IMG/VR virus record: IMGVR_UViG_3300025070_000098
Location: 1-37,540 of that record
From: a virus
DNA length: 37,540 bases
Reading direction: 5' to 3' (one strand)
Under the pieces are notes generated by a model. It was not told the DNA's origin, ran no database searches, and saw only the letters and a list, made by a program, of their open reading frames with translations. The position numbers and the translations under genes are program-made. Shown one piece after another: positions 2,390-5,387 of the stretch (the stretch's first letter is position 1; each line of letters starts with the position of its first letter).

Positions 2390-3565
2390 CTACTTCCGCA
2401 CTACGGAAATCGCTGGCTCTCCTTGCTGAAACACTGTATCAACCACTGCCTGAACGCTCCTAGCAGTGCTGATACCCACCTTATCAAACACTGGAACACA
2501 TACCAATCCAAACGTCTTCTCAGCGCCTCCTAGGCGGATCACACGCCCAATGCTCTGGGAAATACCGATATAATCCATATTCCGCATGAATAGAACTGCC
2601 TCCAGTCCCTTGACGTTGATGCCTTCAGATAGAATAGAGTGGTGCATCACAACAAAACGAGTGCTATCTGAACCCCACTGATTAAGAGTCTTAAAGAATA
2701 CCTCACGGGACACTTTCTTGCCATTGATGATAGCACCAGTTTTGCTGGTAATATACATCCAGTTGTAACCACGCTCATACAACTGCTGACAAAAATCAGA
2801 TTGAGTCACAAGACGCACAATCTGCTTGGTAGAACGTGCTGCAATTAGAATCTTATTGAGTGAGTTGGCATCAATAGTATCAAGCAGGTTCTTCTCATCA
2901 GATTGCTTGAAATCACCCTGAGGAAGTTGCTGAACCACAACCTTAGGAGGAAGAATGTAACCTTCCTCAACCAGTTTAGGTGCAGGAATATTACAGATAA
3001 CCTGTCCATAAACCTCAGGATCATTCATTCCTGGTTTGAAAACAGTCAGAGAATGCTTAGGAGTTGCTGTGAAGAAATAGCAACGATCAGCATCATTACT
3101 GAAGAACTCAGTCGCAGGAAAGAAGTTACGTTGAACTGAGTTATGTGCCTCATCAAAGTAAATGCAATTTACCTCAATGTCTGCCTCTTGAATGCGATGT
3201 AGGGAGTGATATGTGGTGAAGATGATGACATTCTCACCAGCAGTTCTTGCAGTGTTGTTAAACAGTGCAATCTGCTCTGGTTTGGTGCTACTGAAATACT
3301 CAATCTCACCACTATGAACATGCATTACGTGAGTGTGAGTATTATCAATCACCTCAAGAAACTCTTTGCAGAGTTGTTCTGCTAGAAGAATGCGGGGAGC
3401 AACAACAACAATAGTAGAACCGTTATCAATATACTTTTGATTCTCAATAATATCATGTATCATGCACATGGTCTTACCACCACCAGTGGGGATGATAACC
3501 TGACCTTTGTCATATGCCAGCATCGCATTCAGTGCTTTCTTCTGGTGTGGGCGAAGGGTGACCAA
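2390..3565 (-). CDS. DEAH-box superfamily 2 helicase
   Basis: A 391-residue ATP-dependent helicase or translocase. Visible SF2 motifs in order: motif Q/I region RPHQKKAL then Walker A PTGGGKT (residues 26-32), motif Ia VVVAPRILL (53-61), DEAH box YFDEAH (136-141), motif III TATP (166-169) and motif VI QSIGRVIR (337-344). The fold is that of the restriction-enzyme ResIII/RAD3-like group; no nuclease domain is present. The start is TTG at 3565, with AGGAG five bases upstream, directly before LRPHQKKAL, so no N-terminal domain is missing. It follows two methyltransferase-like genes, which makes a joint DNA-modification or anti-restriction role plausible; UvsW-like recombination is the alternative. 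Its GC content is visibly higher than that of the structural genes. Confidence 0.85.
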   Translation of the reverse strand: MVTLRPHQKKALNAMLAYDKGQVIIPTGGGKTMCMIHDIIENQKYIDNGSTIVVVAPRILLAEQLCKEFLEVIDNTHTHVMHVHSGEIEYFSSTKPEQIALFNNTARTAGENVIIFTTYHSLHRIQEADIEVNCIYFDEAHNSVQRNFFPATEFFSNDADRCYFFTATPKHSLTVFKPGMNDPEVYGQVICNIPAPKLVEEGYILPPKVVVQQLPQGDFKQSDEKNLLDTIDANSLNKILIAARSTKQIVRLVTQSDFCQQLYERGYNWMYITSKTGAIINGKKVSREVFFKTLNQWGSDSTRFVVMHHSILSEGINVKGLEAVLFMRNMDYIGISQSIGRVIRLGGAEKTFGLVCVPVFDKVGISTARSVQAVVDTVFQQGEPAISVVRK

Positions 3566-3588
3566 GTGCTCTCCTGTCCTGTATGAAC

Positions 3589-3601
3589 ATATTATAGCAG
3601 A
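3589..3601 (-). promoter_or_regulatory. Extended -10 promoter for the helicase gene
   Basis: The minus strand reads TCTGCTATAATAT, identical to the element at 2343-2355, with TATAAT preceded by TGC. It lies 25 bases before the TTG start of the helicase. A poor -35 (TTCCTT) is at 17 bases. A palindrome GGGATCCC lies just upstream in the spacer region. Confidence 0.6.
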
Positions 3602-3631
3602 AAAGGGATCCCAAAGGAACCCCCTGTGCCA

Positions 3632-4039
3632 CTAGAAGAACTGTTCTACACCAACCGGTTCCCCAAAACCATAATCATATGTAAGAGCATCATGACACAC
3701 ATAATGTGGGTGATCAATAGGAACACCAACTCTCTCACACATTTCTTTATGATTATCTTCCATCAATTCTACAGCATACAACATATTATCGAGAATGTGT
3801 TGTTCGGAATGATACTTAAGGAGTTCATTCTTGAGTGCAATAATAAAGTTACCCGAACCAGCAGAGTTATCCAAAAACTTTGATTCTGGATTCATTCTCT
3901 TCTCAATATCAATTATCTGAACCATTGCTTCACACATTTCCATTGGTGTGAATACTTCTTGAGTTTCAGCAATCCTTTCATCTGAACGCTCAATATTAGA
4001 TCCAGTATCTTTATTATGTTGATTCTTATCAGTGCCCAT
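3632..4039 (-). CDS. Truncated N6-DNA methyltransferase, SAM-binding part only
   Basis: A 135-residue protein with the opening of a type I-like N6-adenine methyltransferase: QEVFTP (residues 27-32), typical of the region before motif I, then the SAM-binding motif I FLDNSAGSGNF (55-65), an acidic motif II region (YAVELMEDN) and the motif III-like DALTYDYGF. The protein ends (GVEQFF) just where the catalytic NPPY motif would follow, so it cannot be a complete enzyme alone. The ATG at 4039 overlaps the end of the upstream methyltransferase gene by 11 bases and is preferred over a start at 4117 that would overlap by 89. It may complement the upstream protein in trans, or be a natural relic. Confidence 0.7.
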   Translation of the reverse strand: MGTDKNQHNKDTGSNIERSDERIAETQEVFTPMEMCEAMVQIIDIEKRMNPESKFLDNSAGSGNFIIALKNELLKYHSEQHILDNMLYAVELMEDNHKEMCERVGVPIDHPHYVCHDALTYDYGFGEPVGVEQFF

Positions 4040-5387
4040 TTCCGTATCTTTCAGTGTATGCTTTAATGAATTTACCTTTGCCAAAATGAGGAATACCATT
4101 GGTAGTTCCTGTAGCAATCTTCCTCAAACTACCATCACCATTCTGCCCCATAGCAACAATACGTTGAAGGATTTCTTCTTTAGTAATATCGTCATCTGAG
4201 CGAACACGAATGTAATTATGAGAAGAAGATTTCTCATAATCTAACCACGGTTTTCCATCAGCATTCTTTTCACCGGGCAAGAATACTTTACCAGATGCTC
4301 CACCACCATCTCCACCGACAAAAATATCAGCATCATATCGGTTCTCATACTTAAGAAACTCGATATGTGGGTGATGCTTGTATTCAGGATCTAATTCACG
4401 TTGCTTCTCACCAATCTTCCACTCTTGAATACAAGCATCGATACTAGCAGCAAAATCATTATCAGCACAATCTTTAGTACTTACAATCTCAAGATCTCGA
4501 TCGATTTTATTAAAGTTATCAGAACCTTGCTTCACAGATTTAGGAAGCACGAGAATAATTTGTCCCTTCTTAGCACGAATACGATCAGCAGAATTATTCA
4601 AAAACTTAAGTGCCAATCTACCACCTTTACCATAAGGAGGATTACCAATAACAGCATCAAAATCCATATCGTTGTATTCTTCTTCGGTAATTTTAGTAAT
4701 ATTATCAGGAACATTTGCCATTCCTGAAGGATTCATATCATAATCTTTGTCAGTGTAGATATTTGTATATCCCTTTTTAGACAACGTGATAGAAAAATGT
4801 CCAAAGGCATCTTGTGGAATATAAATCATAGCATCTTTTGCCAGATTTTTCAACTTATCAATAATTTCTACTACGAGATGCAATTTAGGAGCACGAATTG
4901 CTTCAGGATTCTTCTCCTTAATCAGTTTTTTATGAGATTCTGGGGTGAATCCGAAAACTTTTTCTTGCTCATAAAATCTTTCATTGAGTTCGATTAGTTC
5001 TTTTTTAAGAAAAGAAATAAACTCGGAATAAGATGTAATCCACAAAGGTGCTTCTACAACTTCTGATGAACCTCCAAGAGTTGATTTCCTACAACCAGCA
5101 GCAAATAGTGCTGAACGAACATAATGATCTGTTAGGTCGACATGACAATCAAGATAATCATCAGCAACAACTTCCTCTGGAAGATGTGAATAATCTCTAT
5201 CATCAAACCTTTTGAATCCTCGCTCTGCTTTTGTCATACCAACAAATGCACATATAGGATATTCACCCAGTTCAATCAATCTCTTGATTGATTTCTGCAT
5301 ATGAAAGTAAATCCTAGTATGCTTCGTATCTACTGGATTTCTATAGAAAGGATCTTCGACGTGAATAGCATCCATTAGACCATTCAT
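4029..5387 (-). CDS. N6-adenine DNA methyltransferase-like protein with NPPY
   Basis: A 452-residue protein whose central part carries the catalytic motif IV of amino-methyltransferases, FDAVIGNPPYGKGG (243-256), followed by a strand and LVLPKSVKQ (279-287), the usual arrangement in Eco57I/TaqI-like enzymes. The expected SAM-binding motif I position (about 188-199) reads IYIPQDAFGHFS, lacking the normal GxG, although the following ITLSKKGYTNIYTDKDYD still looks like the strand and acidic residue of motif II. The N-terminal 180 residues are not recognised. It is the first gene of a cassette with the SAM-binding fragment and the DEAH helicase, under a host-type promoter. It could protect phage DNA, alter expression or act in an R-M-like complex. 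Confidence 0.75.
   Translation of the reverse strand: MNGLMDAIHVEDPFYRNPVDTKHTRIYFHMQKSIKRLIELGEYPICAFVGMTKAERGFKRFDDRDYSHLPEEVVADDYLDCHVDLTDHYVRSALFAAGCRKSTLGGSSEVVEAPLWITSYSEFISFLKKELIELNERFYEQEKVFGFTPESHKKLIKEKNPEAIRAPKLHLVVEIIDKLKNLAKDAMIYIPQDAFGHFSITLSKKGYTNIYTDKDYDMNPSGMANVPDNITKITEEEYNDMDFDAVIGNPPYGKGGRLALKFLNNSADRIRAKKGQIILVLPKSVKQGSDNFNKIDRDLEIVSTKDCADNDFAASIDACIQEWKIGEKQRELDPEYKHHPHIEFLKYENRYDADIFVGGDGGGASGKVFLPGEKNADGKPWLDYEKSSSHNYIRVRSDDDITKEEILQRIVAMGQNGDGSLRKIATGTTNGIPHFGKGKFIKAYTERYGNGH

Follow-up and report, generated by a model that had tools for sequence, protein, structure and literature searches.

The analysed stretch of DNA (the window) is a 37.5 kb piece of a T4-like marine cyanophage genome, which carries tail, baseplate, single-strand-binding-protein and PhoH genes. 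The features considered here are the following.

4029..5387, minus strand: P1, 452 aa; phrog_5172; Pfam Eco57I above cut-off
P1 residues ~1-145: N-terminal domain, function not assigned
P1 residues ~150-330: methylase fold with NPPY (AlphaFold2; M.TaqI as top PDB match)
P1 residues ~330-452: C-terminal part, target recognition likely
4794..4817, minus strand: PQDAFGHF, motif-I-like site without GxG, P1 residues 191-198 (alignment)
4632..4643, minus strand: NPPY, motif IV, P1 residues 249-252 (sequence; Pfam Eco57I)
4029..4039, minus strand: overlap of 11 bases, end of P1 and start of P2
3632..4039, minus strand: P2, 135 aa from ATG, SAM-binding half with motifs X and I-III only; phrog_4376
3944..3958, minus strand: motif X EVFTP, P2 residues 28-32 (sequence; alignment)
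3845..3877, minus strand: motif I FLDNSAGSGNF, P2 residues 55-65 (sequence; alignment)
3635..3652, minus strand: tail GVEQFF at the P2 C-terminus, similar to the gp45-clamp-binding tail of gp43
2390..3565, minus strand: SF2 helicase with TTG start; phrog_16; ResIII/DEAD in Pfam

The marks of an amino-methyltransferase are split between the two overlapping genes. Motifs X and I are located in P2, motif IV is located in P1 and is absent from P2. An earlier note on this DNA had described the locus from its letters, and the description was confirmed: P1 has 452 aa with NPPY at 249-252 and a motif-I-like stretch IYIPQDAFGHF without GxG, P2 has a canonical motif I and ends after motif III, before motif IV, with no NPPY beyond, and the overlap measures 11 bases (4029-4039). 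The reversed motif order, with the NPPY gene first and the SAM-binding gene second, and the lack of a nuclease domain (Pfam) in the adjoining SF2 helicase were also found as described. Translational coupling is likely at the overlap. When the stop codon of P1 and the next base (TGAT) are read as one step, P1 and P2 are joined in frame in the window and in several relatives; judged from the sequence, a +1 frameshift product is conceivable. A longer P2 of 161 aa from an upstream TTG was ruled out, because the relatives match from the ATG.

P2 matches phrog_4376 over 134 positions (E 1.5e-69), and N6_Mtase (Pfam) was above cut-off. In IMG/VR 106 relatives were found, of which 80 were kept, and a near-full-length match was present in 43 cyanophage or marine records of the phage collection. 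Every relative examined is short, and none of those in cyanophages is fused. The relatives (~100) have open frames and conserved motifs, with a mean P2 identity of ~70% in the aligned sample. P2 is a real and stable short family and not debris. On checking, it was neither missing nor broken in most relatives, the case that the earlier note had named as speaking against a joint enzyme. A scan of the GTDB species genomes with a single close-relative query gave one hit, on a metagenome-assembled contig with a similar helicase adjoining. Thus, the P2 family looks phage-borne. Distant relatives of P2 were found in the same layout in Klebsiella phage PKO111 and Shigella phage PSD9; the NPPF protein of PKO111 opens with a LEM-3-type GIY-YIG domain.

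A methylase half with N-x-P-[YF] was detected upstream of P2 in all 70 IMG/VR loci with 900 nt or more of sequence on that side, directly adjacent in 60 and one gene further in 10. Five of the 60 adjacent partners were read by eye, as the pattern missed NPPF, NSPY and NSPF. This arrangement is far beyond chance. Among the 43 cyanophage or marine P2 records, 42 have the partner half, and the one record without it is a contig that breaks off at P2. As the metagenomic loci were collected via P2, a loss of P2 is invisible there. This point is covered by reverse searches, in which P2 was present in 11/11 records with a P1-like half and in 35/35 records with a half similar to C25_187 of ACG-2014f.

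The partners differ in build. P1-like proteins of ~450 aa, proteins of 240-260 aa and proteins of 186-216 aa starting at or near NPPY were found, furthermore proteins of ~1000-1180 aa with a helicase (in locus L045 also with a T5orf172 domain above cut-off) and proteins of ~375-420 aa followed by a protein of ~188 aa, which is called PD-(D/E)XK-like for its conserved D...QxK and a single weak match to Mrr_cat. The motif-I region varies widely between these types, whereas motif I of P2 stays alike. Two partners in tandem were observed in L038. P2 occurs in 26/26 ACG-2014f records, and its neighbour genes were compared in the five isolates C16, C90, US2, C25 and US44. It lies beside a helicase-like protein (691 aa) and an NPPY protein (337 aa) in C16, and beside nuclease-like, methylase and helicase genes in C90 and US2. 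In C25 and US44 the local cassette is gone and P2 is kept. A further, unlinked NPPY half is located near 137 kb in 5/5 of these isolates and begins at NPPY in C25 and US44.

Two other neighbours are mentioned as side observations. In cassettes of the Bellamy type and the ACG-2014f C90 type, proteins of 187-200 aa with the pattern G(I/V)DGxG...QxK, which is PD-(D/E)XK-like, are located between NPPY half and P2 or next to them (L006:4436-4999, L107:6482-7084). A 179-aa protein (L047:1899-2438), 2-oxoglutarate-oxygenase-like by eye, lies between NPPY half and P2.

Several partners have no SAM half. These are PSSM2_036 of P-SSM2 and the partners in L036, L037 and L053 (NPPY at 9-10), as well as C25_187 (NPPY at 9) and US44_188 of ACG-2014f. 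On the P2 tree, which has 69 rows, few columns and many forks not resolved, the presence of the partner N-half changes state 5 times, and at least 4 changes are needed for the half-only label by starred branches. At the half-only loci L057, L062 and L077, which stand near the full-length S-SKS1 type, tblastn gave no trace of the N-part of that type. In Aeromonas phages the pair is present in one chain with the same reversed order (Aeh1 p090, Ah1 gp077 and phiAS5 ORF215). NPPY lies at residue 9-11 of this chain, and motifs X and I follow towards the C-terminal end, near residues 290-330. Hence, the reversed order of the window pair can be derived from a permuted order IV...X-I cut in two. The AlphaFold2 model of the Aeh1 fusion, from a four-sequence alignment, had a pLDDT of 46. 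Both halves tile the PADLOC profile mad2: residues 26-122 of P2 fit positions 270-352 and residues 2-99 of C25_187 fit 357-447, almost gapless. The same order of P2 and NPPY half as on mad2 was obtained with phrog_9133.

The C-terminus of P2 was compared with clamp-binding tails. P2 tails are GVEQFF, GLEAFF, LESFF and similar, in some cases preceded by a linker rich in proline (L094, SLDQFF), and gp43 of related phages ends with LESFFT, LEDFFS, LESFFG, LELFFS or LDSFFS. For the Shigella phage the P2 tail is SLLDIFDF and the gp43 tail TLFDMFDF. In T4, gp43, gp55 and gp33 each bind gp45 via a hydrophobic-acidic C-terminus, and these C-termini are exchangeable (PMC2988020). The tail motif, drawn up as a pattern after sight of the sequences, fits 38/49 distinct P2 tails compared to 8/513 other ORFs (shuffled maximum 4). 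Among 227 ORFs of Bellamy it was found in P2 and gp43 only, and in S-CAM7 in 5/241 ORFs, including both P2 copies and gp43. It is absent from the P2 of P-SSM2 and from some other P2s. The gp45 sliding clamp is probably the docking site of the P2 tail, and the likeness to gp43 suggests a replication-linked methylation.

We favour, with somewhat better than even confidence, the explanation that P2 is a SAM-binding subunit acting in trans with exchangeable catalytic and target subunits, that the NPPY-then-SAM order is that of a split permuted methylase and that the tail sits on the clamp. P2 would bind SAM as a separate half (motifs X, I, II and III) of an amino-methyltransferase, most likely for adenine N6. 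The NPPY/F motif IV and the target-recognition region would be supplied by the partner protein, here P1, and both products would form one enzyme methylating phage DNA. With the hydrophobic-acidic tail of P2 on the gp45 sliding clamp, methylation would follow replication. The observations in support are the pairing, the fusion, the tiling, the motif content and the similarity of the tails. From these we infer a physical complex with its activity, the clamp binding and the purpose. The function predicted as most likely is that the phage methylates its own DNA. This may protect the phage DNA, ordinarily from host restriction. Where nuclease-like and helicase parts are present, relatives may use methylation in the restriction of competitors.

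One enzyme in trans had already been suggested in the earlier note. Pairing, fusions, partners starting at NPPY, tiling and repeated losses of the N-half speak strongly for it in the family, less so for the P1 of the window, which was modelled as a whole methylase domain. For the prediction with AlphaFold2, P1 and P2 were linked into one chain through a +1 step at their overlap (TACG read as one step), and a 39-row alignment was used. In the resulting fusion model (pLDDT 82.7, pTM 0.57) the beta1-beta3 fold of P1 and its own NPPY form the whole domain. The P2 core is confident, the placement of P2 is without confidence. The best PDB match of this model is M.TaqI. Thus, P1 of the window may complete its fold without P2, and P2 would need to displace the N-half of P1, because P1 folds its own N-half in the model. 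The complete predicted domain weighs most against the trans-enzyme reading for the window pair and makes this reading less certain for the window's P1.

The motif-I-like site of P1 falls in the confidently predicted Rossmann half (AlphaFold2), and P191, D193, G196 and F198 are invariant in the 17 rows compared. Hence, the missing GxG alone is no proof of a dead SAM site. M.TaqI carries a comparable ACAHGPF. The mean identity among P1 relatives is 59% for the N-half versus 66% for IV-VIII, and the N-half is not decaying. A self-sufficient, M.TaqI-like P1 whose motif I has an unusual form (PxDAxGxF), with P2 as accessory regulator or clamp tether, would agree with the complete predicted domain and its best PDB match, with the invariant residues and with the lack of a catalytic motif in P2. 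However, canonical motifs X and I are needless for a mere tether, and related partners without any SAM half still keep P2. Moreover, the motif-I region differs widely between the partner types, whereas that of P2 is alike. We therefore regard a self-sufficient P1 as rather unlikely, although it is the most serious alternative to a split enzyme.

Further assignments for P1 were tried. By profile comparison no sequence homology between P2 and the N-half of P1 was detectable; an N-half arisen as a duplicated P2 copy (permutation by duplication) has no sequence-level support from it and is an idea only. In a Type IIG restriction-modification enzyme a nuclease domain is part of the methylase chain. 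The N-terminal domain of P1 appears GIY-YIG-like by eye, but a GIY-YIG nuclease is not supported by the profiles, and Pfam nuclease profiles gave no match to P1 or its relatives. With the N-terminal domain of the large partners a weak profile match was obtained (E 0.004, probability 8%).

The helicase was regarded in the earlier note as coupled to the methylase pair, as in the M and R parts of a dedicated modification-restriction or exclusion system. The genes are adjacent in the window, and a similar helicase lies within 300 nt in 34/68 P2 loci with enough sequence. Restriction-like cassettes do exist in the family, where NPPY halves of other P2 systems are fused to or located beside helicases and nuclease-like domains. 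In the window no such cassette was detected: its helicase is without nuclease, and no nuclease profile was found on P1. Furthermore, the helicase family (phrog_16) was detected in 420 phage records, nearly all of cyanophages, and P2 in only 43 of them, and in S-SKS1 the helicase is more than 7 kb away from the pair. The helicase as a dedicated partner of P1 and P2 was dismissed in view of this distribution. The proposed coupling was not upheld, as the helicase is a general cyanophage gene occurring mostly without P1/P2. A Type III Res would comprise a dedicated helicase with nuclease; the window helicase lacks a nuclease domain, and its family is mostly found without the pair. A common insertion site, and not a functional link, may be behind its nearness to P2. 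A dedicated system is thus very improbable. The name UvsW for the helicase is based on the annotation of one relative and on the PHROG family; among solved structures none matched it by sequence.

Functionless remnants of a decayed methylase, for which the split reading frame, the atypical motif I of P1 and the loss of local cassettes in ACG-2014f isolates could be cited, are hardly credible in view of the open frames and conserved motifs in ~100 P2 relatives, their ~70% mean identity and the pairing in 70/70 loci.

The split methylase was compared with known systems. M.AquI, a C5-cytosine methylase cited in PMC5944983, occurs naturally in the form of an alpha and a beta subunit. Two genes encode this one methylase and the products must combine, as proposed here; the split is between motif VIII and the target domain. 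In contrast, the window pair is of the amino-methylase type (NPPY), split between motifs III and IV, and the gene order is reversed. M.TaqI, a gamma-class N6-adenine methylase with a target-recognition domain, is similar in NPPY and in a methylase domain followed by a C-terminal region, but is a single chain with the order X-I-IV-target domain and no second subunit. The order IV-VIII, target domain, X, I-III of circularly permuted (class beta order) amino-methylases is that of Aeh1 p090 and of the concatenated window pair. However, the permuted enzymes are single chains, and the motif details here resemble gamma-type and Eco57I-type enzymes. MTA1-MTA9 and METTL3-METTL14 are likewise heteromeric adenine methylases with unequal subunits. 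In these, SAM site and catalytic motif are both on one subunit, whereas in P2 systems they are on different chains, at least with half-only partners. On mad2 of MADS, P2 and NPPY halves together cover a single continuous region, and some P2 partners fuse a nuclease-like domain, a helicase and the NPPY half as in Type IIG/ISP-like enzymes. Unlike in both, the SAM half is encoded here by its own, shared gene, and there is no nuclease profile in the window.

The literature searched on split adenine methylases, cyanophage methylation and a phage methylase-clamp link, mostly without subscription journals, contained no earlier description of such a system. As far as this literature goes, cofactor site and catalytic motif on separate exchangeable genes would be undescribed for adenine enzymes. 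Complete partner with P2, half-only partner with P2 and permuted fusion may be living intermediates in the origin of permuted methylases. The split-methylase reading also gives a function to proteins labelled 'hypothetical' in most of these phage genomes, and the clamp-like tail would tie phage DNA modification to replication. More tentatively, and short of an even chance, P2 could be a universal clamp-tethered cofactor subunit, which serves several interchangeable, even unlinked, catalytic and target-recognition proteins of one phage and takes them along with the replication fork. If true, this would be a DNA-methylation system of 'one engine, many heads'.

Clamp-like endings were also seen apart from P2. 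The Dam-type adenine methylase encoded by gene 188 of ACG-2014f C25 (L173:4617-5498) has the tail TTLDSFFN, and gp43 of another ACG-2014f isolate ends similarly with MSLESFFT. A 127-aa lysine-rich protein of S-CAM7 (gene 069, L003:2835-3218) ends with NLDTFFSK and is a possible clamp ligand. Other cyanophage adenine methylases (L004:8362-9330, L002:8233-9156, L057:7038-7826, L062:5188-5982) share a different ending, ~[SN]PL(L/E), e.g. QNPLLEALY and QNPLESALYAL. In L126 and L127 (ACG-2014f C16 and Synechococcus phage MA01) gp43 is split into two ORFs of ~492 + 396 and 516 + 403 aa.
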